Below are positions 5,777 through 23,153 of a stretch of DNA of 64,000 nucleotides, piece after piece; positions within the stretch are counted from its first letter, which is position 1; each line of letters opens with the position of its first letter. The notes under the pieces were generated by a model, which searched no databases, was not told the DNA's origin, and saw only the letters and a list, made by a program, of their open reading frames with translations. Position numbers and translations under genes: made by a program. Source of the stretch: Woeseia sp. (GTDB lineage Bacteria; Pseudomonadota; Gammaproteobacteria; Steroidobacterales; Woeseiaceae); contig JAJFKW010000006.1 of NCBI GenBank assembly GCA_021773015.1, positions 186,001-250,000 of the forward strand, given 5' to 3'.

Positions 5777-6007
5777 TTGCTTGTATCGCCGAATTACGTA
5801 ATCGAAGTAACGTTAACGGGCTATCAGTTGCGCTTGGACGTTGTGTCTGGAAGACCCCCCGACGCTATGAAACGGAAACCGGGCAAACGAAACCTGGACG
5901 GCGTAATCGAAATCTGGCGCAAGTATTTTGTCTTCCCGCAGGACCTGTTTGGCCCACTGCCTAGCGGCGATTGGCAATCTTTCGTAGCGTATGCTGATCC
6001 GCCTTGA
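5777..6007 (+). CDS. possible small protein of unknown function
   Basis: A 76-codon frame from a TTG, lying in the 229-base gap between the helicase start and the giant gene's stop and overlapping that gene's 3' end by about 47 bases on the opposite strand. The predicted sequence looks protein-like (YVIEVTLTGYQLRLDVV, then IWRKYFVFPQDLFGP), with a sensible mix of hydrophobic and charged residues. There is no ATG and no clear ribosome site. I do not recognise a family. It could equally be a chance frame. Confidence 0.28.
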   Translation: MLVSPNYVIEVTLTGYQLRLDVVSGRPPDAMKRKPGKRNLDGVIEIWRKYFVFPQDLFGPLPSGDWQSFVAYADPP

Positions 6008-9000
6008 TTGCCAATTGTAAAAATGGACCTTTGGCTGTGTAGCGTGCATCGCGGAAATCGCTGTCGTCAAAGCCAAGCACGTTATAGCCGACCGTTATCC
6101 ACATGTTGTCGCGCACATTAAAGCCGAGATCCAGTCCAAAGCCGTAATCAACGGTACGTGACTCATAAGAATGCAGAATGCTCGTGTGCACGCCAGCGTC
6201 CCAGCGTCGATTGAATCCGTGCCGATAGTCAACGCCAATCAAATCCGTATAGCCGGAGACCTGAAGGTCATCGAAGGTACTTCGCACATACTTGAATGCA
6301 TATTGCAGCGACAACTGACTGCGTTCGCTAATCCGCCGATTAGCATTGAAGTTATTGATCAAGCGCTGATTTTCCTCTTGCCGTGTACCGGCGACGAGTT
6401 CTTCGACAATCAGATCGATACGATTGAGGAATGACCAACGACTGTCGGCTTTGCGCCAAGCCCAACCGTAGCGCAGTGTCGCAGACTGTGACTGGTCGCC
6501 GCTAATTTCCTGGCTGTCCAACAATGTTAGGCCAGCTGACATGCTATGTCCTAAGCTTGGTTCACGAATCCAGCCGGCCAGAAGTCCCAAGCGTTCCTGA
6601 CTGTCAGTCTCGCGAATTTCCAGCCGACTATTGGCGCTCCATAGATTTGCGTTATATGTCGCGCCTAAATAGTACGCTTTGAAGTCGTCGTTTAACGAAC
6701 CCGAAACGAATTCCCGGTCCGGATCGAGACGTCGAATACCTGGGTCCACAATTGTGTCTGTAGAATCTACGCCGAAGTCCAATACCCAGTTTTCGTTGAG
6801 CTTGAATCCCTGTACTAATCCAATATTCGAAAATACGCGTGGACCAAACTCCGTCGACTCATTGCTGATTGAACTATCGATTTGCGCCCTATGCCAGGGG
6901 CTGGCTCGAACGCCGAGTCGCGTCATTTGAGCATCAATGTCCGTACCGCTGGCATCTTCATACTCGGCGTAGACGTCTACGCCCGGAAGCACCTTATAAT
7001 CTGCGCCAAACACTAAGCTTGTTGGAAAATCGACATTATCCGCGGAATCGCTCAGCGCGAAGCTATTGGTAGCCCGTAAAGTGATATCGCCAATTTTGTA
7101 GCTGATACCCAATTCAGCAAGGTCACTGCTTAGGCTTTCACCATCATCGAATTCATCTTCCGCATGCACGACACCGGCTGCAGCATTGAAACCACCATTT
7201 TCGTATCGCAGCCTGGCTCTAGCCGTTGCCCGGATGGTTTCAGTAGCTAGGTTTTGCTGCCAGGACGCTTCACCATCAAAACTAAAGTGTTCCTTTATCT
7301 TTGCCCTCCCATCGATTCCGACCTTGCGAATACCGGCTTCCGCAGCCGATTGCAGACCAAGTCCGAAATCGTCTTCAACTTCCTTAAAATACGCCCTGAC
7401 GTCAACGCGCTCACCTTGATGCTCCACTGTCGCGGAGTGTGCAGATGCCTCCAAGTCACTGGTCAGACCGCTTCGGTTACTCTTGGCGATCTCCGCACGA
7501 AACTCGGTTTGATCATTGATCTGCCAACGCAAATCGACGCCCGTTAGATCGGCCTCAGTACCTTCTTGGCGATCGTCGATATGTGTTACACCCAATTCCA
7601 CTCTGTTTTCTTTGAAATGCAGAGAAGCCCGGCCTCCGGCAACCACACCTTCATTGGCGTCGGCAATACTCTCGTATTCAGCGACAATAAAAACTGGATT
7701 GAAGTTTTCGTCGCGACTGGCGACCGGCTTCTTGAAAAACAATGTTCCGTCAAGGATATCGATGCTGTAGTCGAGAAAGCGGGTCAGAGGCGTCGTCGCC
7801 AGGACACGGCCGGTGTCGAATCGATCACGAACCTCTAATCTGATGTTGTCGGTATTACCAATAATCGGGGCGCTCGATAATTGGTACAAACCCGAGGTGC
7901 CGTCACCGCGAATTTCGTCGCGAACCAAAGATTGATCGGTTTCGCTCGCGAACACCGTATAGCCAACGTTCTCGCCACGGTATTCACTATGAAAGCCGTT
8001 CATTCGCCGTTGATAACGTGCGAGTTCGGTGTAAGTAAGCGCCGTATCAAAGTCACCAAACAATGCGAAAAACTGTTTCTTCTCAAGTTTCACGAATATC
8101 TTTCGCTGGCTTGCCGCTTCAAATCGCTGCTCGCTGCGGTCCGCGTACAGAGAATAAAATGCATTCGGATCGATAATCGAGTCGAATTGATTCCTGGTCT
8201 GGTCACGATCTCGTTTCGAATCGAATGCGAGGGTCAGCAAATACTCGCCTTTCACGCTGCCCTTGGCAAAAAATGCAACACGTCCATCGTCATAATAGCC
8301 GTCTTCCGAACCCGCATTGAATGCGGCGGTCTGATTATCGCTAAGCGTGTTATACCCTACGGTGCCCTCCGCGAATCCAACCAAAATCCACTCCCGTGGC
8401 TCCGCACTCAGCCACAAGCGCACTTCCTGCTCACGGTTGTTTTCGAACTTGAACGTCAGTACAGCTTCACCAGATTCCGTCGTTGGTTCAAGTTCGATTA
8501 GCGCTACGCCATCATCGTCGACTCGGTAAATGGGTTCACGATTTCCGATTTCCACGATCTTGTTTTTCCGGCCATCTTCTACTGACCACCAAGAACGGTA
8601 GGGGTTCGATACCGAAAAGGTTCCCGAAGAACCTTTGCGAGTTTTCTCTCCGCTCCGGTCAAAAAACCGCACCGCAATGACTGGCTTCGTTTTGCCGTCC
8701 GCGACTAGCACCGACATATCGTCGACCACTACCCCGCGCGAAGGCGCTCCGGTGTAAACGACCGTTCTTTTAACGGTCTTGGCAACACTACCGTCCGCGT
8801 TTCTAACGATGGCACGAATCGTGTTCGCACCGTCAGTCAGGGGTACGCCGGCCCACCGAGAAATGGCAAACGTTCGCTCGACGTCTGTGACAAGACCATC
8901 AAAATTGTATGCCGATACTGACTTGTCGTTAATCTCCACGGTTACCGACTGATCAAGATTATGCTTTACTGAAATTCGCGTTACGGGTAGTGGCGGCAAG

Positions 9001-11771
9001 TAATTCCTGGCAGGTAACAAGAGACCGATACCTGGCTTCAGCGTAGTAATTTCAGGTTCCTCTTGGCGCGCAAAATTTTCATATGACTCTGCGCGCTCCT
9101 GACGCCATTTTTCTGCAATTTTCTCCTCCTCGCTTCCCGGCACCGAGCCCTTCGTTTCGGCAAAACGGATTCCACTCGAAGCTTGTGTGACCTCCAGGAA
9201 AGAAGGCTGTTTCGGACGACGACCGCTAAGTACCATCTCAACACGTCGATTTTTCTGCTTACCGGCAGTGGTGGTATTATCGGCGACTGGGTCATCCGGA
9301 CCCCGTCCTTGCACTTGCACGTTTTCGCGCGGAATGTTTAGCGCCGTCGCAATGTAATCTGCGGCTGCTCGCGCTCTAGACTCAGAAAGAATGTAATTGT
9401 TGGCAAAACGGTGCTGATTCGCTGCGGAAATTTTGTCGCTATCGCTGTGTCCGATAGCCTGAATGGATATATCGCGCACACCCTGCCAATTTTCGATCAA
9501 TATTCCCAATGCCAACTGGTCCTTATCGGATAGTTCGGCCGATAAGACGGGAAAGTTTAGGTTAAGAACGTAGCCTTCGTTTTTGACGACCGCCGGCTCT
9601 CGAGACATTTTGGTTTCTACAACCGGCGTGCGCTGTGCCGCTTCTATTGGAGAGTCGAATTTGGCGGTTGCCTTGGAAACCAATTCACCGTCGACGGCGG
9701 CGTCTATAGTCGCTGTAAATTTCAACGTCGATGACCAGTCTTTTGTTTGGTCAGGCAGCTCGATGGTGATCGAAGGACCGGCGATTCGTGGTTCGCTCGT
9801 CGAAGCACCGTCAACAGTTAGCGAGTTGGTCAAGTAACTTACACCGTCAGGCAAGAATACCATCGTACTTATTTCGCTGACTTTGACGTTTCCCTTTCCG
9901 GTTAGCGTGACTGCATAGCCGACCAGGTCGCTGCTATCCAGGGCATAATTACGCATTTCAATATTGACCTGACCTTCAGGTGCCTTCTGGCGTCGCAAAT
10001 AGAAGTCCGCACGCGCCATGCTACCGCGACGCAGTCGAACGTATTGCGATTCCGCACTACCCGCATACGACGTTGCAGAGTTGCAACCAACAATGTCGTA
10101 ATAGTCCGGAACAGAGTCAGGATCCAATTGCGCAACGTGGGTTCCCGGAGTCAAGCCTTCGAAGTGGAATCGACCGCCGTCGTCAGATACAGCGTAACGT
10201 CCGTCCTCCAGATATACGCGTATATTCGCGACGCCAGCATCCTCGCTAAACGTCGCCGAATTGCATTCGCCGCTAACAACCCGGCCAATGAGTGTACTTG
10301 TTGAGCGAAACAAGTCTTCAGTAATTCTAATACTTGCGTCGGATTCGTTTGATATAAGTCCATTACCTGCAAATGCAGTTGCTGAATTGATCAATTCTTT
10401 ATTCGCCTCTCCGGCGACGATCTCAACAACGTAGAACAGGCTCATTCTATCGCCGACCGCGAGGTCGCCGAGTTCAAAGCGCAGAGTTCCCGCTGCCATA
10501 TTGATAGCTGGATCGGATATGCTCACGTTATCCAGCGTGCTTGTGCCGGGAACATAACGGACTCCAGCGGGCAATCTGTCCAAAATCGTTACGTCCGGGG
10601 CAACGCCCGATGCGGAAGCGTTTTCAACGATTAATTCGTAACGTACGAAATCTCCGGGCGCCGCGATTGTAGTCAGTGTACGTTTTTGCAGGAACAAGGC
10701 AGTCGATTGTGGATCGACCGGAATGTCGACGCCAAAAGACAGTTCACCATTCTTGACAAACGCCACGCCAAACGACGCAGGTCCTAGCGCAAAAGGCGCA
10801 CCAGGCAAGACTTGCAGTTCGGCTATTGATCGTGATGACGGAGCAGCAAAATCGTTTTGTGGTGAAACCCGTATTCGATAGTTTCCATCCGGCACAACCG
10901 GAAATCTATATTGTCCCGGACCGAATACGTAAACAGTGCCAGAACTGTCAGTTTCCACCCCGCCACTTGTAATGGCTGACGGAAATACACTAACGCCATC
11001 ATTGCCGAATACAATTGCAGGAAGCCCGGTCGTGGCATCCAGCAATTCGATCAGTGCGTTGCTAACGGCAGTTCCGGTACGAGACTCAAATACCCTTTGC
11101 AGCGGATCCAACTGTGCCGCAACAGAAGAAGTATCGTTGCTATTGTCTGGATCAATGTAAGTCGCAATCAGCCCACTATTGGGTACACCCTGAAGTGTAC
11201 AATCGCCAGATACAGCACTTCCGGTCGATGTTGGAAGGTAACCGCTGAAAATTCCAGTATTGACGCCCGTCTCAGTCAAACGAACAACTTCGCTGTCACC
11301 ACTGGTTGCACTCGTGATAGTTACTATGGCGAAGTCCAATACCTGGAAGTCTCTATTTTGATCCGCGTCAATCAAACGAATAAATATCGACTCACCCAGG
11401 TTGTAATTCGCCGTCTCGCTAATCTGCTGCGGTTGCAATGGATCGATCAGCACGCCGCCGACGAGAGTTGGGTTCGCCAGATTGATGAAGTTATTCGCTT
11501 GTAGGCAGGCGGATGGCCCGACGGTTTCTTGGAAAGACCCGGTTGTTGTAGGTTGTACGCGTGTGAGCTGAATGCTCGAAGTGCTTGGAGCCGGCGCCGT
11601 TACAATGTCGACGACGTTGCTCGTGAAGACTTGCGCTTGATTCGCCGAGTTAGTGAATTCTACGCTTGCCTGATTGCTGATAATTGCACCCGGCGGTGCG
11701 GCGAGAACCGAATTCGCGGCCAGAAATGACAACAAAACAGTCGCAATTGATCCTCTAATAACGCATTTCAC
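5961..11771 (-). CDS. giant outer-membrane protein: DUF11-like, SdrD-B-like, OmpA and beta-barrel domains
   Basis: About 1936 residues from a GTG at 11771. That start gives a clean signal peptide (MKCVIRGSIATVLLSFLAANSVLA, cut before APPG); the frame stays open 54 codons further upstream, but that stretch reads through a 34-base palindrome. Domains by residue from the GTG: an N-terminal SNQASVEF segment shared with the small neighbours; strands with a DADQNRD...GIFSGY motif (about 125-200); a DUF11-like domain (360-480); a prealbumin/SdrD-B-like domain, YLEDGRYAVSDDGGRFHF (493-590); another DUF11-like stretch (600-710); an OmpA peptidoglycan-binding domain with GHSDSD, LSESRARAA and NRRVEMVL (740-850); an Ig-like region (930-1040); then about 800 residues of amphipathic beta strands ending LQLAIKAD, read as an outer-membrane barrel. 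It is last of four same-strand envelope genes. Envelope location is well supported; function is unknown. Confidence 0.85.
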   Translation of the reverse strand: MKCVIRGSIATVLLSFLAANSVLAAPPGAIISNQASVEFTNSANQAQVFTSNVVDIVTAPAPSTSSIQLTRVQPTTTGSFQETVGPSACLQANNFINLANPTLVGGVLIDPLQPQQISETANYNLGESIFIRLIDADQNRDFQVLDFAIVTITSATSGDSEVVRLTETGVNTGIFSGYLPTSTGSAVSGDCTLQGVPNSGLIATYIDPDNSNDTSSVAAQLDPLQRVFESRTGTAVSNALIELLDATTGLPAIVFGNDGVSVFPSAITSGGVETDSSGTVYVFGPGQYRFPVVPDGNYRIRVSPQNDFAAPSSRSIAELQVLPGAPFALGPASFGVAFVKNGELSFGVDIPVDPQSTALFLQKRTLTTIAAPGDFVRYELIVENASASGVAPDVTILDRLPAGVRYVPGTSTLDNVSISDPAINMAAGTLRFELGDLAVGDRMSLFYVVEIVAGEANKELINSATAFAGNGLISNESDASIRITEDLFRSTSTLIGRVVSGECNSATFSEDAGVANIRVYLEDGRYAVSDDGGRFHFEGLTPGTHVAQLDPDSVPDYYDIVGCNSATSYAGSAESQYVRLRRGSMARADFYLRRQKAPEGQVNIEMRNYALDSSDLVGYAVTLTGKGNVKVSEISTMVFLPDGVSYLTNSLTVDGASTSEPRIAGPSITIELPDQTKDWSSTLKFTATIDAAVDGELVSKATAKFDSPIEAAQRTPVVETKMSREPAVVKNEGYVLNLNFPVLSAELSDKDQLALGILIENWQGVRDISIQAIGHSDSDKISAANQHRFANNYILSESRARAAADYIATALNIPRENVQVQGRGPDDPVADNTTTAGKQKNRRVEMVLSGRRPKQPSFLEVTQASSGIRFAETKGSVPGSEEEKIAEKWRQERAESYENFARQEEPEITTLKPGIGLLLPARNYLPPLPVTRISVKHNLDQSVTVEINDKSVSAYNFDGLVTDVERTFAISRWAGVPLTDGANTIRAIVRNADGSVAKTVKRTVVYTGAPSRGVVVDDMSVLVADGKTKPVIAVRFFDRSGEKTRKGSSGTFSVSNPYRSWWSVEDGRKNKIVEIGNREPIYRVDDDGVALIELEPTTESGEAVLTFKFENNREQEVRLWLSAEPREWILVGFAEGTVGYNTLSDNQTAAFNAGSEDGYYDDGRVAFFAKGSVKGEYLLTLAFDSKRDRDQTRNQFDSIIDPNAFYSLYADRSEQRFEAASQRKIFVKLEKKQFFALFGDFDTALTYTELARYQRRMNGFHSEYRGENVGYTVFASETDQSLVRDEIRGDGTSGLYQLSSAPIIGNTDNIRLEVRDRFDTGRVLATTPLTRFLDYSIDILDGTLFFKKPVASRDENFNPVFIVAEYESIADANEGVVAGGRASLHFKENRVELGVTHIDDRQEGTEADLTGVDLRWQINDQTEFRAEIAKSNRSGLTSDLEASAHSATVEHQGERVDVRAYFKEVEDDFGLGLQSAAEAGIRKVGIDGRAKIKEHFSFDGEASWQQNLATETIRATARARLRYENGGFNAAAGVVHAEDEFDDGESLSSDLAELGISYKIGDITLRATNSFALSDSADNVDFPTSLVFGADYKVLPGVDVYAEYEDASGTDIDAQMTRLGVRASPWHRAQIDSSISNESTEFGPRVFSNIGLVQGFKLNENWVLDFGVDSTDTIVDPGIRRLDPDREFVSGSLNDDFKAYYLGATYNANLWSANSRLEIRETDSQERLGLLAGWIREPSLGHSMSAGLTLLDSQEISGDQSQSATLRYGWAWRKADSRWSFLNRIDLIVEELVAGTRQEENQRLINNFNANRRISERSQLSLQYAFKYVRSTFDDLQVSGYTDLIGVDYRHGFNRRWDAGVHTSILHSYESRTVDYGFGLDLGFNVRDNMWITVGYNVLGFDDSDFRDARYTAKGPFLQLAIKADQHTLRKIANRR

Positions 11772-11784
11772 GGTACTCAAGATG

Positions 11785-11818
11785 CACTTCGGGGGAAACA
11801 ATTGTTTCCCCCGAAGTG
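11785..11818. repeat. perfect 34-base palindrome in the leader of the giant gene
   Basis: The arm CACTTCGGGGGAAACAA (11785-11801) is exactly complementary to TTGTTTCCCCCGAAGTG (11802-11818), with no loop bases and no mismatch. It ends 14 bases before the GTG start. As RNA it would make a very stable hairpin next to the ribosome site; as DNA it could be a dimeric protein site. No T-run follows on either strand, so it is not a typical Rho-independent terminator. A second GC-rich stem (CCGCTC/GAGCGG, 11881-11896) lies further up the same leader. Confidence 0.85.
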
Positions 11819-11966
11819 TGTTTCGCACAAGGCGTCGCAGACCGTTCCCAGGGGGAGCGGCCCACGCAGCGCGCGCTCCTCCGCTCTTCTGAGCGGCGGA
11901 GTTCGCACCAACCGTGTGTGATTTACCTAGCACCGTGATTTATTGAACTAATCGCTTTCCGTGCGA

Positions 11967-13091
11967 CTAGTCAATCGTGACCTGAAAACGAATGGTCAAC
12001 GTTGTGTTAGCGACCACTGTAATCACCAAGTTTGCGTTGCCCACAGTCAATGTATTGGTACCAACAGCCGGCGTATCAAGATCTAACGCACAGCCATCTG
12101 TATCACCATCGCCACCATCCGCATCACAATCAAGGATTGCTGCAGCGCCGTTATTGATGATCTCAACGTCGTAACCAAGCGCAAACGGGTCTGCCACCAA
12201 TGTCACATTTGTCAATTCATCGCTAATCGAAATCGCATCAGCATCAACAGTAAGCGAGTTATTGGTTACCGTAATGGTATATTCCACAGTCGCGCCGGGA
12301 ATATGGAACGGGTTAACAGTGCCATTGATTGGGTCGTCAATCAGTAACGACGCCTTGGTGACTGTTAATGATGCAGAAGCTACCTGATACGTGTTTTGCG
12401 CCGAAGCGGAATCTTCGTCCAGCACGCCGCCAACAGCCACTACCACGTCCTCGGTGCCGACGGTATCGGATGCTGAGGTTGTGATTATGCCGCCTAACCC
12501 ACCGCCTCCACCGGCACGAACCGTCGCAGAGAGCAATACATGCGCGAAGTCGCCATCAAGCAGTTCGTTCGGAATTGGTGTGTCTGCGTCGGCAACGATC
12601 CAAACGACACGAGTCGCGTCTGCAGTTAGCTCTTCAATGAAGTCTTCCGCATCATTCACGGTGTTGTCATCATTGTTATCGGCAACTACCGACAGGTTGT
12701 TCATCTGACCTGAGTCGGTGTTGCCATTGACGATCACGCCGTCGGCTTCATTGGTTGGCAAGAACGCGAAGTCCTGCGTCTGGTTGCCCGTATTCTGCAG
12801 CAAAAATCGCACAGCAACTTGAGTGTCGCCGACATTCACTTGCGTTGGCACAACAGGGTTAGGATCGGGAACCAGCGTAAAATTCACGCGGTTATCAACC
12901 CGGAACGTTGCGATATTGGATTGAACTGCGGTTTGCGGAACACTGCCAACAGAATAGGCTATCGATGCCTGGTTGTTGACATCTGTCCCCGCCGCGGTTC
13001 CGACGGCAAATGCCTGCTGAGAAAACAGCAGGACAGCTGCCACCGTCGCCAGTCTCGTTACAAGACCGTTGAGGTTAATTACAGATTTCAT
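11967..13091 (-). CDS. secreted DUF11-type repeat protein
   Basis: About 374 residues from the ATG at 13091, preceded by AGGAG at a 7-base spacing; a GTG lies one codon upstream. The signal peptide ends at QQAFA-VG. The mature N-terminus, GTAAGTDVNNQASIAY, then SNIATFRVDNRV, matches the neighbour at 13750-14772. The middle is an Asp/Asn/Val-rich beta-sandwich type sequence with a glycine run (AGGGGGLGG). A DUF11-like domain (ASLTVTKASLL, then VEYTITVTNNS) occupies the C-terminal third. It ends in FQVTID, as the neighbour does. Likely exported and cell-surface or periplasmic. No enzyme motif was seen. It is third of the four envelope genes. Confidence 0.8.
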   Translation of the reverse strand: MKSVINLNGLVTRLATVAAVLLFSQQAFAVGTAAGTDVNNQASIAYSVGSVPQTAVQSNIATFRVDNRVNFTLVPDPNPVVPTQVNVGDTQVAVRFLLQNTGNQTQDFAFLPTNEADGVIVNGNTDSGQMNNLSVVADNNDDNTVNDAEDFIEELTADATRVVWIVADADTPIPNELLDGDFAHVLLSATVRAGGGGGLGGIITTSASDTVGTEDVVVAVGGVLDEDSASAQNTYQVASASLTVTKASLLIDDPINGTVNPFHIPGATVEYTITVTNNSLTVDADAISISDELTNVTLVADPFALGYDVEIINNGAAAILDCDADGGDGDTDGCALDLDTPAVGTNTLTVGNANLVITVVANTTLTIRFQVTID

Positions 13092-13108
13092 CACGGTACT
13101 CCTTAGTT

Positions 13109-13139
13109 AAAAAAACAATCTATCGGCAATCATTGCCGA
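13109..13139 (-). terminator. hairpin followed by a T-run between two DUF11 genes
   Basis: On the minus strand TCGGCAA, a 3-base loop and TTGCCGA (13139-13123) are followed after seven bases by seven T residues (13115-13109). The spacer is longer than in a standard intrinsic terminator, so it may only attenuate transcription into the downstream gene. Confidence 0.45.
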
Positions 13140-13191
13140 GCAGGTTTCCTTAAGACGCGGCGTTACCTGCATACGCTGCGAATGGTCGAAA

Positions 13192-13212
13192 GCAATCGCT
13201 ACCTGCGATTGC
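13192..13212 (-). terminator. stem-loop just after the small DUF11 gene
   Basis: A perfect 8-base stem, GCAATCGC with GCGATTGC, and a 5-base loop lie 14 bases beyond the stop codon, followed on the minus strand by TTTC. It is the first of two hairpins in the 134-base gap. Together they may lower or adjust expression of the downstream pair, or stabilise the upstream mRNA. Confidence 0.4.
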
Positions 13213-13225
13213 CCATCAAATCGTA

Positions 13226-13714
13226 TTAGTTGAGTCGCGCTCTGAAGCGGGCAACACCCTGCGCACCGGCCGCCAGATCGTTTTGCATGATCCAACGAAT
13301 GTGGGTGTAGTCATCAGCCGTGGCTGCGCGCACCTCACCGTTCTCGGTAACCGTCAATTCACTCGCGACCGAATAGTACTTGCCGCCATCGACGGAAAAC
13401 TCGATGACCGTTCCTGGTCCGAACGCAGAACCCGATTCGTAAGTCAGATTGACCGGCACTGGGTTGGTAATCGTTACGTTCTCAGCAGATTCCTGGCTGA
13501 CGTTTCTGAACGTAATTGTGTAGATAACGCTATCGCCTGGCAGCACTGTCGCTGCTTGCACTAATTCTTTTTGTTGCTTGCCATCGTCATCCACGCTGAT
13601 CTGCTCTTTCTGCACCACGGTGGTTAATTCCAAATGCCCGCTGCCTTGCGCAAAAGCCATCGCCGCACATAAGTATGCGAACGCGAGAACAACAAATTTC
13701 ATAAAGATTTTCAT
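13226..13714 (-). CDS. small secreted DUF11-domain protein
   Basis: A 162-residue protein with a signal peptide ending AMAFA-QG and essentially one DUF11-type domain: a charged N-terminal stretch, then VLPGDSVIYTITFRNVS, ITNPVPVNLTYESGSA and FSVDGGKYYSV, ending ARFRARLN. This domain type is a beta sandwich found in surface and envelope proteins, often as repeats; here it stands alone. The ATG at 13714 is preceded by a G-rich ribosome site. It lies second in the four-gene run, 35 bases after the first gene. It may be a structural subunit or partner of the larger proteins, which is inference. Confidence 0.82.
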   Translation of the reverse strand: MKIFMKFVVLAFAYLCAAMAFAQGSGHLELTTVVQKEQISVDDDGKQQKELVQAATVLPGDSVIYTITFRNVSQESAENVTITNPVPVNLTYESGSAFGPGTVIEFSVDGGKYYSVASELTVTENGEVRAATADDYTHIRWIMQNDLAAGAQGVARFRARLN

Positions 13715-13749
13715 AACAGCCCCCTGTCAAGGATGTGTAAAAGTGTTTA

Positions 13750-14772
13750 TTAGTCGATCGTGACCTGAAAAATAATCGTTTGAATTCCATCGGCTTGACT
13801 TAGGTCACCAAGCCGAACAACCACCGTTGGTGCGCCGCTGGTATCCAGTTCACCCAAATCCGCATCAACTGCATCCGACAAAGCCCCACCGTTCAGTAAG
13901 ATGCTATTGGCTGAATATGTTGTACCCGTCGGAACTACATCGCGAAATGCTGCTCCTGTTGCAGCACCCGTCGTCACCTCTACGGTGGCCGTATAGGTTA
14001 GTGTCGCCCCGGGAATCGGATCTTGGTTGCCGAATTGATCATTGACTAGAACGGATTTGACGATACTCATTTGAACATCGGAAACCAGATACTCACCAAA
14101 CTGTACAGCGAGCCCGCCGCTGCTACCGAGTACCGCATCCACGCCGCCATCACCTTGCCCTGCGAACGAGTCGCCCGGTGCTCCGGAACCCGTACCGGCT
14201 GCTACCGACAGTTCGCTGCGACCAATTTGGCCATTCAGCGCAGTTGACGGAATATCGTTAACCAAAAGGATGTCGACCGACTCATCTGCCGCCATATTCG
14301 GGTCATTTGTACCTGGATCATACGCAACGTCGCCAGCGCTAAAATCTCCGCTCAAATCGGTATCGAAATAGATTGCTGGCACCGCCGGCACAGGGTCGAA
14401 ATCGTCACCCGCCAAAATGCTGTCGATTGCGAGCGAGAATGTCTCGCTGCCATTCCCCGTATTTGTCACGGAAAAAAGTAGGGATCTGTTGGCGTCGTTA
14501 GCTGCCACCAGTACCTGGCCACTTTGCAAAGTAACCACCACGTCAATGCGTTCCTCGACGGTTATGCTCGCGACGTTAGACTGCTGTGTTGCCGTTGTCC
14601 CGTTTAGGTCGAATGTTACTTCCGCAATGTTGTCGATGACCGTACCGGCGGGCGTTCCCGCGGCACTAGCCAAATTGCCAAGCAACAGCGAGGCGACAGC
14701 CAGGATAGGCACATAGATTTGAAACCGCGACCGGCAAATACCAGACGCGCGAGCAATTGTTGCCACAGTCAA
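13750..14772 (-). CDS. secreted DUF11-type repeat protein
   Basis: About 340 residues. The TTG at 14772 has AGGA seven bases upstream; a GTG six bases further in is the alternative. The signal peptide ends NLASA-AG. The mature N-terminus, GTPAGTVIDNIAEVTF, then SNVASITVEERIDVVV, is the same module as in the 375-codon neighbour. A middle part rich in Asp and Gly precedes a DUF11-like domain (MSIVKSVLVND, then ATLTYTATVEV) and the end FQVTID. First gene of the run, 272 bases after the sigma-54 activator gene. The two long DUF11 proteins are clear paralogues. Function unknown. Confidence 0.8.
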   Translation of the reverse strand: MTVATIARASGICRSRFQIYVPILAVASLLLGNLASAAGTPAGTVIDNIAEVTFDLNGTTATQQSNVASITVEERIDVVVTLQSGQVLVAANDANRSLLFSVTNTGNGSETFSLAIDSILAGDDFDPVPAVPAIYFDTDLSGDFSAGDVAYDPGTNDPNMAADESVDILLVNDIPSTALNGQIGRSELSVAAGTGSGAPGDSFAGQGDGGVDAVLGSSGGLAVQFGEYLVSDVQMSIVKSVLVNDQFGNQDPIPGATLTYTATVEVTTGAATGAAFRDVVPTGTTYSANSILLNGGALSDAVDADLGELDTSGAPTVVVRLGDLSQADGIQTIIFQVTID

Positions 14773-15044: not shown

Positions 15045-17483
15045 TTACGGCCGAAAAATCTGCAGTTTTTTCATTTTCGAGCGCAGCGTGCTCGCCGGCA
15101 ATCCCAGCTTCGTCGCGGCGCCCAACTTACCGGAGATTTTCCAACCCGTCTCTTCCAGCGTGCTGATAATATGATCCCGCTCGACGCTGTGTAAATTCGA
15201 TACACTGGAACTAATCACTCTAGGTAGTTCGCTACGATTGCCGAATCGTGAGACATCCTGCGATGGGGATCTTGAAACAATCAACGGTTCGGCCAACTCA
15301 AGCACCGGGCCCGTTGTCGAGATTATTGCACGTTGAATGACGCCCTCCAGTTCTCGAATATTTCCTGGCCATGGATAGTCGTTAATCTGCTGCATCATGG
15401 ACGCAGAAATCGCACCGATATCACGCCCCAGTCTTTGCGCATGAATGCGTGCAAAGTGCTCTGTCAACAATCGTATATCGTCGCCACGATCCCGTAACGC
15501 CGGCAGGTCGATAGGAAATGTACTAATACGGTAATACATATCTGAGCGAAACTCGCCTGCCTCAATTGCCTGTGAAAGGTCACGGTTAGTCGCTGCAATG
15601 ATACGCACATCAACATGTGTCGTACGGTCACCGCCTAGCCTCTCAAATTGACCTTCCTGCAGCACACGTAACAATTTCGCCTGCACGCCTACAGGTAGTT
15701 CGCCTATTTCGTCGAGAAACAATGTGCCATTATCCGCAAGATCGAAGCGACCACGCTTTGCGACTTTCGCGTCAGTAAAAGCGCCAGCTTCATATCCAAA
15801 AAGCTCGCTTTCAATTAGATCACCCGGTAATGCCGCACAATTCACTTTTACCAGCGGTCTATCTCTGCGTCCGCTGCGCTCGTGGATCGCGCGGGCGATG
15901 AGTTCCTTGCCCGTTCCTGTTTCGCCGGATATAAGCACCGGGGTTGCCGTATCAGCAACCTGCTCAACCATTTGCAAGCATTGCATAAGAACCGCACTTT
16001 GACCGACGATTTCGTCAAATCCGTGCGACGATTCGATCTCCTGCCTGAGATATATATTTTCAGCTTCCAAGCGATCCGTCGCGTTACGCAGACCGTCAAG
16101 CGCCTGATCGAGATCACGATATGATTTCAGGCGCAATATAAAGTTGGCGAAAAGGTCCGAAAACACACGCAGTTCTAATATGTCTTGGTCTGTCCAGCGG
16201 CGACACTCGGAAAAGTTACTGAATGTTGCGGCGCCAACCACTTCGTCAGCAACCAAAAGAGGTAGAACCGTAAACGACTTTACGCCGATCTCCGATAATG
16301 ATTGCCGGTCACGCGTATAGCTTCGAGGCAGTTCCCTTACGTCATCAATGCGAATGACTTCGCCATTTCTTGCGCATTCCGCCAACTTCGGAAATTTCTC
16401 CATGGAGACGACCCGAGAAGGTGCGACGTCGACTTCATTCCAGTAGTACTCCATAAGCGCCACATTGGTCTGAGGATCCAACCATATCAATGTGGATCTG
16501 TCTGCTGATACCGATTTACATATCATCTGCAGACAATTTCGCAACACAGAATCTACGTCTTCATTGGTCGACTTCAGAAGTTTGGCGGAGATGTCCGACA
16601 CCAGTTGTTGGTAGCGCAGGCGACTGTTCAAAGCACTACGAGTTTGCCGAAGATCGAGAATGTTTGTTTCCGAACCCCACATTCTATAAAGACAGCCGTC
16701 CTTTATTTCACCCGATAAACTAACGCGCAGCGCGCACTCCTCCGCATTTCGATTTTTATAAATTAGCTCATAGTCAGAAATTCTGTAGTTATTTTCAACG
16801 AATGATCGGAAGTAACGCGAATGCGCTTCATCATCATTGTTGCTATCCAACAATGCCATTTTGTTGCCAACGACCTCAGCAGGCGAGATTGCTTCTAGCT
16901 CCCTCGCAAAGGCCTTGTTACACCATATGAGAATCGCGCCATGGCTGCGCTTGATTTGTTCATCGACAGATACCGATATCGGCATTGGGGGATCGAATTC
17001 GTAACAGTAAACTGCGTTTGTCGTCGTATCTAATACTGACTCGAAACGATCCTCCGATTGCGACAAATTGGACTCCGCAAGACGTACACGGGCAGCGGAT
17101 GCCAGGTAGGCGCTCTCGAATTTCTTACGATGTAGAAGCGCGATCAGCGTGCCGAATGCAACCAATGCAAATGCGCTCCTCGATAGGAACCAGTGCACCC
17201 AATAAGGAACTAGGCTGTCGCCGCCATGCGGCATGCGCTGGTCCGAATTGCTCGTATCGAGCACGAGCAAAACCTGATCAACACCGACAACAATGACCGC
17301 AAGCAAGATGCCGACAAACAACATAGTCCGTCCGAGGGTTGGTGCCACACTTTGCGAAAGCGTACCGGTGCAAACAATCATACAAATTATGCAAAGTGAC
17401 GATACAAATATGATCAGGTCAACGACCTGCATTAGAAATTCGGCGTTTAAATTCAGCACTTGCAGCTCAATTTGTGCAGCCAT
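15045..17483 (-). CDS. membrane-anchored sigma-54 transcription activator with PAS and GAF domains
   Basis: An 812-residue enhancer-binding protein. Three hydrophobic segments (about 20-40, 53-74, 96-117) anchor it in the inner membrane. A PAS-like domain (about 142-270) and a GAF domain (about 295-445) follow, then a coiled linker and the AAA+ domain. The latter has Walker A GETGTGKE, Walker B LFLDEIGEL, the arginine-finger region and PWPGNIREL. The C-terminus is a Fis-type helix-turn-helix (765-810). The loop that contacts sigma-54 reads GAFTDA instead of GAFTGA. The gene lies between the DUF11 cluster and a divergent sigma-54 promoter at 17913-17928, so that promoter, the DUF11 genes, or both are candidate targets. 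Ligand unknown. Confidence 0.9.
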   Translation of the reverse strand: MAAQIELQVLNLNAEFLMQVVDLIIFVSSLCIICMIVCTGTLSQSVAPTLGRTMLFVGILLAVIVVGVDQVLLVLDTSNSDQRMPHGGDSLVPYWVHWFLSRSAFALVAFGTLIALLHRKKFESAYLASAARVRLAESNLSQSEDRFESVLDTTTNAVYCYEFDPPMPISVSVDEQIKRSHGAILIWCNKAFARELEAISPAEVVGNKMALLDSNNDDEAHSRYFRSFVENNYRISDYELIYKNRNAEECALRVSLSGEIKDGCLYRMWGSETNILDLRQTRSALNSRLRYQQLVSDISAKLLKSTNEDVDSVLRNCLQMICKSVSADRSTLIWLDPQTNVALMEYYWNEVDVAPSRVVSMEKFPKLAECARNGEVIRIDDVRELPRSYTRDRQSLSEIGVKSFTVLPLLVADEVVGAATFSNFSECRRWTDQDILELRVFSDLFANFILRLKSYRDLDQALDGLRNATDRLEAENIYLRQEIESSHGFDEIVGQSAVLMQCLQMVEQVADTATPVLISGETGTGKELIARAIHERSGRRDRPLVKVNCAALPGDLIESELFGYEAGAFTDAKVAKRGRFDLADNGTLFLDEIGELPVGVQAKLLRVLQEGQFERLGGDRTTHVDVRIIAATNRDLSQAIEAGEFRSDMYYRISTFPIDLPALRDRGDDIRLLTEHFARIHAQRLGRDIGAISASMMQQINDYPWPGNIRELEGVIQRAIISTTGPVLELAEPLIVSRSPSQDVSRFGNRSELPRVISSSVSNLHSVERDHIISTLEETGWKISGKLGAATKLGLPASTLRSKMKKLQIFRP

Positions 17484-19640: not shown

Positions 19641-20261
19641 CTATTGGCGAAACCCGACGTCGTATCGAGAGTCGATATTGTAAGCAGTCTGCGTGTTGTC
19701 CGATTGAATACTGCCACTGCTTGGCACACCGTCATCGCCACGAGCCTCCAATATCTGCGCTATGTCACCTGGAATTTCGCCGAATACAACATTGTGGCCG
19801 CTTAGATTATAGAGCGCCAAGTCGATACCCACTAAGCCGCCAAATGAATTAGACGGCTGCTGATAGCTCGCGTTGGTGCTGTCAATCGGACCAGCGATCA
19901 GGCCCGCGCCGCGTAAGTGCTTCCAAATCTTGCGGGATTCGTTGCCGTTGTTGGTCGAATTCCATCGGCCATCGATATTGCCATTTCCGTTACCGTTATC
20001 CGCTGCCGCCCAGGTTCCTGAGAAGCGGGTAGACGCTGACGGGTCGTCGCCAGGCAGTGAACCATAGCGATCCTGGTACGCGTAAATTGCCGCCGACACA
20101 CCAGAGAAGTCATTCTCGATTCGCTTGATTTTCGCGTTAGTAATCATCTCCCGGCCCTTCAACACGCCGCCGATCAACAGACCAATTATTACCAAGACAA
20201 TAGCGATTTCAACCAGAGTAAAACCTGACTGTTTTCGCAGATTCGGCAGTTCCATTTTCAC
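19641..20261 (-). CDS. type IV prepilin-like protein (major or minor pseudopilin)
   Basis: 206 residues from a GTG at 20261 with GAGGA seven bases upstream. The prepilin leader ends QSG, cut before FTLVEIAIVLVIIG, with Phe+1 and Glu+5. That hydrophobic helix forms the pilus core. The globular part is rich in Asn, Gly and Ser and has no cysteine pair. It is last in the MSHA-like operon and separated by 175 bases from the gene before it, so it may have its own promoter. Needs a prepilin peptidase, which is not in this window. MshA-like in position, but identity to MshA cannot be judged by eye. Confidence 0.88.
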   Translation of the reverse strand: MKMELPNLRKQSGFTLVEIAIVLVIIGLLIGGVLKGREMITNAKIKRIENDFSGVSAAIYAYQDRYGSLPGDDPSASTRFSGTWAAADNGNGNGNIDGRWNSTNNGNESRKIWKHLRGAGLIAGPIDSTNASYQQPSNSFGGLVGIDLALYNLSGHNVVFGEIPGDIAQILEARGDDGVPSSGSIQSDNTQTAYNIDSRYDVGFRQ

Positions 20262-20436
20262 GATAGCATCCTCAATTAGTTGTGCGTGAAGCGGGTTAAT
20301 TATCGTCCATTCGCGAGCAGAACGATTTCATCCTATGAGTATGTCATCGGCCTGAACGGCAAATTCTTTAGGTCATTAATATCATTAAATACAATAGATT
20401 AGCGAAAATGAGACGTAATTCCGCAACCGACTAGAA

Positions 20437-21207
20437 CTACGGTAATTGACCCGCCTCGAGCATCAGTTTGTAGAGTAGGTTTGGCGAACTCCAGATGACC
20501 AAATCGTCGTACTCGGCCCCGCTCAATTCACTACGATCCCTAGTAACAAAGACGCCATCCAAATTCACCGTATAGCTTTGACCGGATGCACCACCGCCGA
20601 TTGTTCCTCCAATATTCTCCATTTGGTCAGCTGATGTCGTGCCAGCCCAGTCCTCGCCGAGCGAATAGACAATGAACGGTGCCGTGTCGGTCAGCGTTGA
20701 ATTAGCAGATCCGCATGCCGTTGCCGTCGTCCCGGTTGAGGTCGAGCAGACTACTAAATCCGGCATCAATGAACTAATCGTTACATTCTGCATCTCTCCG
20801 ACGGTCGTTAAGTCCCATTGGCCGTTGCTATCGCTGTCCGATGCGGAAACGCTATAGCGAACGGGTGCGCCCCACTTGTCTAATAACAAGTTGTCGTTGT
20901 TTCTGGCACCGCTCAGCCCGAGCGTTGTCGCCGGTATGAAGCCATGTTGCGCAATGCAAGATCCAACATTGGCTGCTGCAGCGCCGTTGCTTGCTGGCGT
21001 CGCTGGACACGGCAGCCGTCCATTTGATATTGCGTAACCATGAATCGCGTCTTCAATTAGCTTCATCTGATCACGCGCTTCACGAATACGGGCGTTTTCC
21101 CGCTGCACGGAAAGCGGCATTGCTAGTCCGCCAAGTACCAGACCCATTATCAAAATGACGATCGCAAGTTCGACGAGACTAAACCCACTTTGCTTCATAG
21201 TATTCAC
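20437..21207 (-). CDS. prepilin-like protein of the MSHA-like pilus
   Basis: A 256-residue pseudopilin. The leader MNTMKQSG is cut before FSLVELAIVILIMG (Phe+1, Glu+5). The globular domain contains four scattered cysteines (LPCPATP, VGSCIAQ, VVCSTST, TACGS) that could pair in the periplasm. Larger than a typical major pilin, so a minor pilin at the tip or an assembly initiator is likely. It starts 8 bases after the stop of the neighbouring gene, in one operon. Confidence 0.85.
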   Translation of the reverse strand: MNTMKQSGFSLVELAIVILIMGLVLGGLAMPLSVQRENARIREARDQMKLIEDAIHGYAISNGRLPCPATPASNGAAAANVGSCIAQHGFIPATTLGLSGARNNDNLLLDKWGAPVRYSVSASDSDSNGQWDLTTVGEMQNVTISSLMPDLVVCSTSTGTTATACGSANSTLTDTAPFIVYSLGEDWAGTTSADQMENIGGTIGGGASGQSYTVNLDGVFVTRDRSELSGAEYDDLVIWSSPNLLYKLMLEAGQLP

Positions 21208-21214
21208 GGTTACT

Positions 21215-22648
21215 TCAGCACTCGAAATTGTTTAGAGATTCATCGATACAGAACAATCGATCATTGAAAATACTGGTGCTCGGCATTGATTCAAAATTCG
21301 CAGCACCACCGATATAGGGCAACGCAGCGAGATTGCCGCCTTCCAAGTAATTATCCAGCGCCCCCTTGGTATCAACGTCTATCGGCGGCGCGTCGCGAAC
21401 TTGTGAGAGGCTCCGAAGCCGGCTACCAGAGAAAATTATTAGTGCCGCGTACTGGCCCGAACCATTTACGGCGAGGCAGTTTGAGCAACTGTTAGGTACG
21501 GCGGAGTTTGGTTCGAATGACTCGGCGACGACGTAGAAAAAGTGATCCTTCCAATTTCGCCATGAAGCTAGCATCGTTGCGGTCCATTGAGGAACCGCCG
21601 TCGAATCACAATCGTTTAGAATTTGCGAAATAGTGTTACCGATTGCCGCATTGCTTTGCGCTACATTATCCGGCAAGCGACCGGATAAAACACCGAAATC
21701 TGCATCGGCATATGCGCCATCAAGACGATAATCAGACAGCGAAAGTGGGCTCGGCCACGGAAGCCGACGGTCGTTACTACCACCAACATTATTTTTCGCA
21801 TAGTCCGCAACACACGCGGCAACGGCATTTCCGAGATCGCCAATACGGCTCGTATAGTCTTGGCGACCGTCGACTAGTCGGGCAAGGTCGCTACGAGAGA
21901 TTGATGCGATTCTATCGTTGTGTGAAAACTCGTCCGATGAGCCAACGCGTGCTATCAGTTGATCTATGCTGTCAGGCGTCGACGAAAGGGTCGCATTTGA
22001 GATTCCCGTAATCGAGTCAGCCTCAAGAAAATTCGCCGCGTTAAAATTGCTGTCGCAGTGCTGTAGCGGATCTGTAGTAGCAACTCGCTGTTGTCCCGGA
22101 TGCGCATCCATAGCCGCAATGACCAGTGCAACCGGACGCTCTCGCGGCAGTGCGCCTTCAAGCAACATGCCATCTTCCAATGCATATAATTGAAGTTGCC
22201 CGTTACTATCTGGATTTATCATCGAAGAAGTTGCAGAGGACCCGGCCTTATGCGAACCCGAAACGACATACCACAAGCACTCTTTCGCACCGTCGGTGGG
22301 GACATTCAATCCCAGCGTTCGCCATGGCAACCTGCCAATCACTGTGACGCCAGGAGCAGCACAGTTTGCCGTATGTGCGACACCTTCTATTGTCGCGCCC
22401 GTGTCGTCTATGTCTGGACAAGGTAGTTGAAGCATATTCCCAGGGGTGCGCTCAACGGTGGTTGCAGCGTATGCCAGCAAAGCGTCGCGAGCCGCCGAAA
22501 GCGAAGCTTGCGTGTGCTGCGCTTTACGAATTTTGAATGCGCCGGAACTAATTCTTGCTACCAATAATGCGGACGTCGCGAGCAACACCGCCAGCATCAT
22601 CATCAACAGTGCCGCACCGCCTTGCCGCGGTGCCACGGACCTAGCCAT
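21215..22648 (-). CDS. large minor pilin-like protein (MshP/PilX/GspK type)
   Basis: 477 residues from the ATG at 22648, which overlaps the preceding gene's stop by 8 bases. The N-terminus MARSVAPRQGG followed by AALLMMMLAVLLATSALLV is a class III-like leader and helix, but Glu+5 is missing, as in GspK/PilX-type proteins that cap the fibre. The long periplasmic part has about a dozen cysteines, including two close together in SCSNC, and many Asp/Asn/Ser. Likely a tip-located minor pilin. Confidence 0.8.
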   Translation of the reverse strand: MARSVAPRQGGAALLMMMLAVLLATSALLVARISSGAFKIRKAQHTQASLSAARDALLAYAATTVERTPGNMLQLPCPDIDDTGATIEGVAHTANCAAPGVTVIGRLPWRTLGLNVPTDGAKECLWYVVSGSHKAGSSATSSMINPDSNGQLQLYALEDGMLLEGALPRERPVALVIAAMDAHPGQQRVATTDPLQHCDSNFNAANFLEADSITGISNATLSSTPDSIDQLIARVGSSDEFSHNDRIASISRSDLARLVDGRQDYTSRIGDLGNAVAACVADYAKNNVGGSNDRRLPWPSPLSLSDYRLDGAYADADFGVLSGRLPDNVAQSNAAIGNTISQILNDCDSTAVPQWTATMLASWRNWKDHFFYVVAESFEPNSAVPNSCSNCLAVNGSGQYAALIIFSGSRLRSLSQVRDAPPIDVDTKGALDNYLEGGNLAALPYIGGAANFESMPSTSIFNDRLFCIDESLNNFEC

Positions 22649-23153
22649 TGTGTTTGCCGTCCCGGCTGGACACGCCACGATCTAACGGATTATCAGTATC
22701 ACCGACAGATTCAATATTGGAGGTCTCTTCGCTCTCCGCGTCCCGCTTCCCGTCCGATTCTACGTCGCCTTTTCCCGATGGCAGAGATGTTTCCCGGTGG
22801 CGAATTATTGTTACTTCGCCAGGAAACAGGAAGTCCTCCGGCACAATTCGTCGCGAGCCTTCTATAAAGTCTCCGTTGCGCCAGCTACGTGCCTCACCGG
22901 TCGAATTTATTATGAAACCGGCAGCACCAGCCGGTTTTCTCATGCGGACAGGTTCTTCCGAGCTGCGTTCTCCTACAACGCCAAGATCTTGCGGGTCCAT
23001 TCTCGCAGCATCCAATTGGCGCCGTTGATCCGGAGAAAAAAACACTCGATCAACGGATATGGTATCTAACGACTCGTACACCGTCTGGCCCTCCGCGAAC
23101 GCAGAAACCGTAATTCCACTGCCTATCACTAGCATTGCGAACCTAGCATTCAC
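22641..23153 (-). CDS. MshK-like periplasmic pilus assembly protein
   Basis: 170 residues with a signal peptide (MNARFAMLVIGSGITVSAFA). Motifs RVFFSPDQRRQL, then GAAGFIINSTGEARSWRNGDFI, then VTIIRH, resemble the short GspC/PilP-like MshK proteins, which link the inner-membrane platform to the secretin. The C-terminal 50 residues are charged and low in complexity. It overlaps the MshJ-like gene by 4 bases and the following pilin gene by 8, so translation is coupled along the operon. Confidence 0.7.
   Translation of the reverse strand: MNARFAMLVIGSGITVSAFAEGQTVYESLDTISVDRVFFSPDQRRQLDAARMDPQDLGVVGERSSEEPVRMRKPAGAAGFIINSTGEARSWRNGDFIEGSRRIVPEDFLFPGEVTIIRHRETSLPSGKGDVESDGKRDAESEETSNIESVGDTDNPLDRGVSSRDGKHNG

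Follow-up and report, generated by a model that had tools for sequence, protein, structure and literature searches.

We analysed a stretch of 64,000 nucleotides (hereafter the window) from the genome of a Woeseia sp. (assembly GCA_021773015.1, contig JAJFKW010000006.1, positions 186,001 to 250,000 of the forward strand). Its minus strand carries an operon of four genes, which we call A, B, C and G in this order, with intergenic gaps of 35, 131 and 33 bases. All four products start with a Sec-type signal peptide, as judged by eye. An initial annotation, made from the sequence alone, had described three small exported DUF11-type proteins encoded on the same strand as a giant protein with DUF11, OmpA and barrel parts. 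Open reading frames, Pfam and NCBIfam profiles and AlphaFold2 models confirm this observation, and its interpretation as a surface-assembly or adhesion apparatus is partly supported by the results given here. The genes and their parts are listed below, with positions in the window and residues in amino acids (aa); Ig stands for immunoglobulin.

13750..14772, minus strand: gene A, 340 aa, exported protein, putative shaft-type subunit with donor hairpin, Ig-like domain and truncated DUF11 domain
14545..14661, minus strand: putative donor hairpin of A, aa 38-76, directly after the signal peptide, with the candidate isopeptide residue Asn48
13753..14079, minus strand: truncated DUF11 domain (putative acceptor) of A, aa 232-340, with Lys239 and Asp278, ending in ...FQVTID and the stop codon
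13226..13714, minus strand: gene B, 162 aa, exported single DUF11 domain, acceptor only; putative cap or minimal tip (or chaperone)
11967..13094, minus strand: gene C, 375 aa, exported protein, putative shaft-type subunit with donor hairpin, Ig-like domain and truncated DUF11 domain
12891..13001, minus strand: putative donor hairpin of C, aa 32-68, with the candidate isopeptide residue Asn41
11970..12374, minus strand: truncated DUF11 domain (putative acceptor) of C, aa 241-375, with Lys247 and Asp292
5961..11933, minus strand: gene G, giant putative anchor protein, 1990 aa (1936 aa from the alternative start at 11771)
11589..11696, minus strand: putative N-terminal donor hairpin of G, aa 80-115, with Asn87
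10317..10721, minus strand: complete DUF11/CLIPPER domain of G, with Lys417, Asp452 and Asn516
9246..9554, minus strand: OmpA domain of G, putative peptidoglycan anchor, aa 794-896 (Pfam and fold)
6006..7697, minus strand: predicted outer-membrane barrel of G, aa 1413-1976, about 30-32 strands

The length of 1936 aa first given for G corresponds to an internal GTG at 11771. A conserved GTG at 11933 gives 1990 aa, and because the frame from 11933 is free of stops in all 11 aligned orthologues this longer form is likely. Pfam matched G above cut-off with DUF11 (residues 416-522, E 1e-11) and OmpA (PF00691, residues 794-896, E 3.3e-8, 34.2 bits for a cut-off of 27.2), as anticipated from the sequence. 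CarboxypepD_reg and OMP_b-brl scored below cut-off, and the SdrD-B-like domain that had also been proposed came down to a weak SdrD_B match (E 0.038). Among the small proteins, B matched Pfam DUF11 (PF01345) above cut-off, and this family did not match A or C at E up to 1. With NCBIfam TIGR01451 (cut-off 24 bits), A passed with 24.5 bits and C remained below with 21.4. A search of the PDB with the profile of A returned nothing at E up to 1. Gene A also encodes a conserved FDTDxSGDxSxGD motif (14329-14367, minus strand) that resembles a calcium-binding loop.

The DUF11 family now bears the name CLIPPER, given for the intramolecular Lys-Asn isopeptide bonds that its domains form (PMC12617251). 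In the crystal structure 9IFR the bond between Lys715 and Asn806 was observed, presumably catalysed by Asp748 (PMC12617251). In complete DUF11 domains an F-x-V-T-I-D strand leads through a turn into a hairpin with an I-x-N-x-A motif (e.g., in loci L104 and L081). The A and C proteins of the window terminate in the F-x-V-T-I-D strand, and AGTxIxNxAxVxF...SNxxxxxV or a similar sequence stands at the mature N-termini of A, C and G. In profile-profile comparisons, the last domain of A and C aligned to the complete DUF11 domain of G up to column 103 of 137, which is the end of both chains (probabilities of 96.8 and 97.1%). The N-terminal hairpin (donor) of A was homologous to those of C and G (97.7 and 98.3%).

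The two ends of A and C complement each other in sequence. We scored them with a DUF11 profile made of 10 complete domains of seven proteins, iterated from the domain of G and containing no rows of A, B, C or G; most of the seven are head proteins of related operons (see below). Appending the hairpin to the truncated domain (acceptor) raised the mean score of A from 12.4 to 24.4 bits (all 16 rows rose) and that of C from 26.9 to 35.8 bits (17 of 18 rows). The controls scored 9.7 (A) and 24.1 (C) in native order and 10.9 and 26.0 with shuffled hairpins. Only five of 3400 shuffles attained the real gain, none of the 1600 of A and five of the 1800 of C. When 39-residue windows were slid along each protein (170-216 per protein), the best one to append was the N-terminal hairpin in every protein tested (16 of 16 A, 18 of 18 C). 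The DUF11 domain thus appears, from its sequence, to be split between the two ends of A and C. This would give a concrete molecular basis to the earlier idea that the giant protein might dock DUF11 subunits.

A profile of the donor hairpin was trained on the rows of the window and of loci L021-L040 and applied to L041-L119, the genomes being partly shared. It found the hairpin at the N-terminus of 42 of 46 A, 59 of 67 C and 51 of 58 G, in none of 59 B, in none of 10 large DUF11 proteins, in two of seven weakly assigned frames and in none of the 1375 other frames, which serve as background. The misses include fragments devoid of their own N-terminus (e.g., the second half of a broken C in L054). 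An earlier count with regular expressions was too strict (donors in 36 of 46 A and 42 of 58 G) and was replaced by the profile.

The residues of the isopeptide bond are split along with the domain. All three lie together in the DUF11 domain of G, where Lys is kept in 70 of 73 sequences, Asp in 72 and Asn in 71, and in A and C they are divided between the N- and C-terminal ends of the chain. The acceptor Lys is kept in 50 of 50 A (Lys239) and 69 of 70 C (Lys247), and the acceptor Asp in 50 of 50 A (Asp278) and 68 of 68 C (Asp292). The donor Asn is kept in 43 of 46 sequences of A, in 66 of 67 of C and in 68 of 70 of G. These counts set gapped rows aside (one for A Lys, one for A Asp, none for C Lys and two for C Asp; for the donor Asn, five in A, three in C and 12 in G). 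Lys-Asn isopeptide bonds would probably lock the joints between A and C.

The three small proteins had been treated as one class. This holds for A and C, which are alike, but by its sequence B is a different kind of subunit, with no N-terminal hairpin and with the catalytic Asp mostly replaced by Asn. Of 63 B sequences, 51 have Asn and 10 have Asp at this position, and 45 retain the nearest Lys; in most genomes, B therefore probably cannot form the bond. Proteins built on the same acceptor-only plan are encoded elsewhere. In the genome of the window, on another contig, we found two proteins with a truncated DUF11 end and no hairpin, which we call heads:

Genome G000, contig 1, about 1.135 Mb (~1135 kb; L122 562-1992): head 1, 476 aa, H-type lectin domain
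Genome G000, contig 1, about 0.907 Mb (~907 kb; L123 559-2040): head 2, 493 aa, reelin-like repeat above cut-off (MAM-like by eye)

The profile of B matched the acceptor of the heads to the extreme C-terminus of both (97.8%), and B therefore looks like a cap or a minimal tip. Using a profile of 11 truncated ends, we searched 36 genomes and found 27 strong places, of which 26 had their locus analysed, the two of the window's genome included. Of these heads, 25 end at most 3 aa from the end of the acceptor profile, partly by design since the same profile found them. None of the 26 carries a donor hairpin, the frames of six being open at the 5' end. Their N-terminal parts differ from one another, and Pfam H_lectin scored above cut-off in two of ten proteins scanned. 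Among the 11 aligned heads, Lys is present in 10 and Asp in nine (one Glu, one Val). Of the 18 genomes that match G strongly (>500 bits), 17 have heads, and of the 18 that do not, none has any (Fisher P 4e-9, ignoring phylogeny); the one genome with G and no head (G018) is 67% complete. Most heads are on contigs other than that of G, and one (in G015) lies close to G on the same contig. The four genes are thus not the self-contained set that had been proposed, as the heads also belong to it.

The four genes form a conserved unit. A search of 60 genomes for G gave some match in 54, many of them in the OmpA domain only, and 19 near-full-length places including that of the window, the other 18 being 41-60% identical. 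Among 20 wider neighbourhoods, A, B, C and G were complete and on one strand in 15, four were cut by contig ends and one had C in two frames; homologues of A (49-67% identical) were present in 19, one being cut by a contig end. A class-wide spread of 185 genomes held G at E 1e-100 or better in 11, that of the window included. A scan of a collection of species genomes returned 322 relatives of G, of which we fetched the best 79 loci. According to the record titles these come from Woeseiaceae, other Gammaproteobacteria and Proteobacteria, Desulfuromonadales, other Deltaproteobacteria, Nitrospirota/Nitrospiria, one Krumholzibacteriia and a few others, with one contig titled Halobacteria archaeon. 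They include the isolates Geomobilimonas luticola, Marinobacterium profundum and Thalassolituus alkanivorans. In the 55 loci with at least 3.4 kb upstream of G, partly from the same genomes as the 20 neighbourhoods, B was present in 54, C in 52 and A in 44. The small genes therefore travel with G, as had been predicted for a functional unit. B together with two genes of the A/C type occurred in 49 of the 55 (exceptions: L078, L090, L096, L097, L106 and L110).

The structure of G was modelled in parts. Its DUF11 domain superposes on the CLIPPER crystal structure 9ifr with Z 13.2 and 2.6 Å over 117 of 123 residues. The N-terminal model has a mean predicted local distance difference test score (pLDDT) of 88.2 and a predicted template modelling score (pTM) of 0.50, and its first two strands (6-16 and 22-33) form the hairpin. 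All 50 rows listed in the fold search with this model start at residue 35 or later, the hairpin lying outside the matches. Over residues 97-185, the profile of the N-terminal half matches chain 8c8k of a Nitrosopumilus S-layer protein (E 5.4e-11). The C-terminal AlphaFold2 model (pLDDT 77.2, pTM 0.61) has an OmpA fold at its residues 1-115, with Z 15.6 to YfiB. In line with the barrel first proposed, it also predicts 32 strands at residues 1413-1976 (623-1186 of the model), two of them in a stretch with pLDDT below 50. Among the best large-barrel matches are 6r2q_B of the Mtr complex (Z 12.9, 395 residues, root-mean-square deviation (rmsd) 10.4 Å) and 8agd_A, the SlpA of Deinococcus (Z 12.5, 439 residues, rmsd 11.1 Å; Foldseek E 1.3e-8). 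SprA (8gl8) and LptD chains superpose poorly in this search, which does not reach strand number or closure. The C-terminus of G is thus predicted to be a very large barrel. No usher family was found among the Pfam matches of G or the best 25 of its 31 NCBIfam rows, and the fold search with the 1200-residue model cannot settle the type of barrel.

We consider it probable that the locus encodes a surface fibre built by exchange of β-hairpins, probably made covalent by spontaneous isopeptide bonds, with G as its base. The best reading of these sequences is a FimH-like head, a self-ligating shaft of A and C, and a base anchored in the outer membrane. The CLIPPER domain, which is CnaA-like and would form its Lys-Asn isopeptide by itself with the help of a catalytic Asp, would be divided into two halves. 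The half with Lys and Asp would make the C-terminus of A, C and the heads, and the hairpin with Asn would start the mature chains of A, C and G. A head or B would offer its truncated domain first, and the hairpin of A or C would enter it. A and C would then chain head to tail, one subunit filling the truncated domain of the next with its N-terminal hairpin, and Lys-Asn ligation would lock each joint where the residues allow, with B acting as a non-covalent cap or minimal tip. Finally, the hairpin of G would occupy the one truncated domain still free, fixing the chain to a barrel that sits in the outer membrane and is tied to the peptidoglycan by the grip of the OmpA domain.

The polarity of such a fibre would follow from the proteins that carry one half only. 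B and the lectin- or MAM-like heads bear only the truncated half, which would confine them to the distal end, like FimH in type 1 pili, and G bears a donor hairpin without a truncated domain, which would confine it to the base. The split, the match of its two halves, their bond residues and the co-occurrence of the genes can be read from the sequences; we infer that the hairpins are exchanged between molecules, that the bonds form, that the fibre is polar and that it leaves the cell, through the barrel of G or otherwise.

Several results weigh against this reading. With the DUF11 domain of G itself as the profile, the gains on completion are small: from 21.2 to 24.3 bits in A (16 of 16 rows, attained by 43 of 1600 shuffles) and from 16.9 to 18.7 bits in C (10 of 18 rows, attained by 215 of 1800 shuffles). 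The margin of the sliding windows is thin in the A of the window (8.6 bits at the hairpin, 7.8 elsewhere). Pfam agrees weakly, its DUF11 score rising by 1-6 bits on completion: four A/C constructs rose from 16.1, 25.3, 26.9 and 24.6 to 21.9, 27.2, 28.4 and 25.7 bits, and three shuffled controls of them scored 13.5, 25.4 and 23.8 (8 of the 10 control constructs made were scored). One shuffled control of C lifted the neighbouring family DUF7927 to 30.5 bits. The A of the window has no Pfam DUF11 hit with or without the hairpin, its completed form gaining a sub-cut-off DUF7619 match across the junction. Windows of the N-terminal hairpin of G add little (-1.7 to 9.0 bits) to the acceptors of A and C and are outdone by windows of its internal DUF11 domain, in a comparison that is confounded; windows from the N-terminal half of G are uninformative here because the internal DUF11 ones score as a second domain. 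The donor was undetected in seven of 58 giants, of which those of L104, L115, L116 and L118 resemble a divergent hairpin and those of L090, L103 and L106 hardly do. The head of L105 has neither Lys nor Asp, and the co-occurrence counts take no account of phylogeny. The structure models cover G only, so that the pairing of the split domain in A, B and C rests on sequence. Finally, neither a chaperone nor an export route came to light for A, B and C; within the four-gene operon, to which the scan was limited, the PapD-like chaperone family had no match in these three proteins at E up to 1 in Pfam and NCBIfam.

Alternatively, the truncated C-terminal DUF11 domain could be a sorting signal, like the C-terminal domain of type IX secretion substrates, with G as the translocon or attachment platform that recognises it; the hairpins in A, C and G would be just related strands. 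One C-terminal domain is indeed common to otherwise diverse heads within a genome, and the strand count of the barrel is large enough for a translocon. Yet, we regard this as unlikely, since it leaves unexplained why the N-terminal hairpin is the top completion in 34 of 34 A/C rows, why Lys/Asp and Asn are conserved on opposite halves, and why G has a hairpin and no truncated domain. The fibre might also be held by donor strands without any isopeptide bond, or be a polymer kept in the periplasm between the wall and the outer membrane. Archaeal threads, TasA and chaperone-usher pili all polymerise via donor strands (PMC9715654, PMC9674648), and B belongs to the set although it mostly lacks the catalytic residue. 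The invariant or nearly invariant Lys and Asp of the A/C acceptors argue against the former, and the H-type lectin heads, which suggest an outside location, against the latter, making this explanation improbable. We consider it very unlikely that each hairpin completes the C-terminal domain of its own chain, making A and C closed, circularly permuted and non-polymerising proteins: both do carry the two halves in one chain and the appending test cannot separate intra- from intermolecular pairing, but about 150 residues, Ig-like by eye, separate the halves, and the lone halves (hairpin only in G, acceptor only in B and the heads) would make no sense.

The proposed self-ligating fibre can be compared with several known systems. 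One is the CLIPPER adhesin of 9IFR, a fibrillar adhesin of the Gram-negative Acinetobacter silvestris (B9T28_05395), which shares the domain family, the Lys-Asp-Asn residues and an OmpA-like end domain (PMC12617251). Its bond lies inside a complete domain of a single long chain, whereas in our locus the domain is split over two chain ends and comes with a barrel and a conserved operon of several genes. The terms 'donor strand', 'split domain', 'barrel' and 'usher' do not occur in the text of PMC12617251.

The logic of assembly resembles that of chaperone-usher pili, in which FimA, FimG and FimH are assembled with the usher FimD. By analogy, both would have a donor-less lectin head, a shaft with donor and acceptor, a donor at the mature N-terminus and a large outer-membrane barrel. 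An N-terminal donor that would complete a strand-deficient Ig-like domain and a head without donor are both found here in the sequences. Here, however, the exchanged element is the hairpin of a CnaA-like domain with isopeptide residues, and the base protein itself has a donor and is anchored by OmpA. As no PapD-like or usher family is among the matches shown for the four proteins, we do not file the fibre under chaperone-usher pili.

The threads of Sulfolobus are donor-strand fibres whose subunits are proposed to be linked by isopeptide bonds, and they have a putative cap protein (PMC9715654). Their subunit, Saci_0406, is type-I-pilin-like and the bond is proposed between an N-terminal Asp and an Asn two subunits away (PMC9715654). 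Compared by description, they share donor strand, proposed isopeptide and cap with the proposed fibre, but are archaeal and have no outer-membrane anchor. TasA and TapA of Bacillus subtilis form Gram-positive donor-strand fibres (PMC9674648) and likewise use donor-strand exchange outside the chaperone-usher pathway; in the text of that report, 'isopeptide' occurs in the title of a reference only.

Sortase-built pili are covalent fibres with isopeptide-bearing Ig-like domains. Their subunits are linked by an enzyme and the isopeptide bonds stay inside the domains, whereas in the proposed fibre the split domain would make the joint. CnaA/CnaB structures of sortase pili (4hss, 8wxd) were among the rows of the fold search with the N-terminal model of G. 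The SlpA of Deinococcus also links outer membrane and wall. The SlpA/SDBC and Mtr barrels are among the best matches to the C-terminus of G, but at high rmsd, and we know of no DUF11 hairpin or OmpA domain in them in the arrangement of G. The order of domains in G (N-terminal Ig-like stalk, OmpA, barrel) would also allow a passenger and barrel arrangement as in type V autotransporters.

The junction of C and G contains a further conserved element:

11782..11939, minus strand: conserved structured RNA at the C-G junction, about 158 bases, four helices, overlapping the first codons of G

In 11 aligned sequences, 87.7% of the cells were paired, compared with 34-48% when the structure was slid along the alignment. 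Two-sided changes occurred in 19 of 35 pairs, which 2 of 500 shuffles attained, and none of 500 shuffles attained the covariation score. Helix 1 was chosen on the same alignment and pairs in 71.6% of cells only. The RNA overlaps the frame from the conserved GTG (10 of 11 sequences, GCG in the other), which runs without stop into G in all 11. It may thus lie inside an N-terminal extension of G of about 54 codons, ahead of the signal peptide, and since this frame is open, coding and structure coincide. A model of the RNA scored above 60 bits in 14 of 37 genomes, at one place each, with a weak match in two more. It matched the sense strand in 27 of 52 loci, each time at the start of the G frame and at most 6 bases from the first start codon in 25 of the 27 (the frames of L069 and L108 open earlier). 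The element is not in Rfam, where a single sub-threshold match (E 1.4) to a viral microRNA family lay on the other strand and was due to the palindrome. A plain terminator or a known riboswitch was considered and dropped, as the helices co-vary and the frame through the RNA is open in 11 of 11 sequences. That the RNA sets how much anchor is made relative to shaft is guesswork.

A bolder proposal, which we hold only tentatively, is that these elements define a new class of Gram-negative fibre. A self-ligating split Ig domain, working as a natural tag/catcher pair, would join diverse tip adhesins, A/C shaft and peptidoglycan-bound barrel covalently without sortase, chaperone or usher, the barrel of about 30 strands would be the export channel, and the RNA between C and G would set the ratio of shaft to anchor. 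Among the papers listed by searches of an open-access library without bioRxiv, we recognised no account of a split DUF11 domain, such a fibre or this operon. In passages of a study of Syntrophobacterium aggregation, DUF11 proteins are named only in the archaeal partner (PMC10787695). The fibre would then be of a kind not described before, with its own chemistry and its own anchor among donor-strand surface fibres.

If the reading is right, bacteria from Woeseiaceae, which are abundant in marine sediments, to a Geobacter-like isolate, Thalassolituus and Nitrospirota have an unrecognised fibre. The role of many Gram-negative proteins annotated as 'DUF11 domain-containing' or 'OmpA family' could be read from the presence of a donor hairpin, a truncated acceptor or both, and tip adhesins could be predicted in genomes where they are unlinked to the operon. 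The joints would also be a natural case of split-isopeptide chemistry, which has been engineered as SpyTag/SpyCatcher.

The operon varies among distant loci. In L097 (12525-17267, after a gap of about 1 kb), L098 (12809-15571), L107 (11748-14686) and L105 (11729-13540), G is followed by one or two large DUF11 proteins that have the acceptor only, and a large DUF11 protein lies upstream of B in L078, L106 and L110. Longer versions of G reach 3021 residues (L109 3325-12390) and 2414 residues (L115 5347-12591). Further giants of 1400-2400 aa in genomes G008, G016, G026, G040, G051 and other relatives share with G its OmpA domain and the stretch of about residues 1172-1489 at around 30% identity, some with two OmpA matches per frame (e.g., on contig 22 of G051). 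They may represent a wider paralogous family of barrel anchors.

Directly before gene A, the window encodes an 812-aa regulator (15045-17483, minus strand) with GAF-, AAA+/sigma-54- and HTH-like parts, as judged by eye. Its homologues were found in 22 of 99 loci (L021-L119, some from the same genomes). A search for a sigma-54 promoter ahead of A gave at best a poor match (8 of 11 positions). Beyond the regulator (about 19641-22678, minus strand) the window encodes prepilin-like proteins, two of which have an N-terminus of the FTLVEIAIV or FSLVELAIV type.

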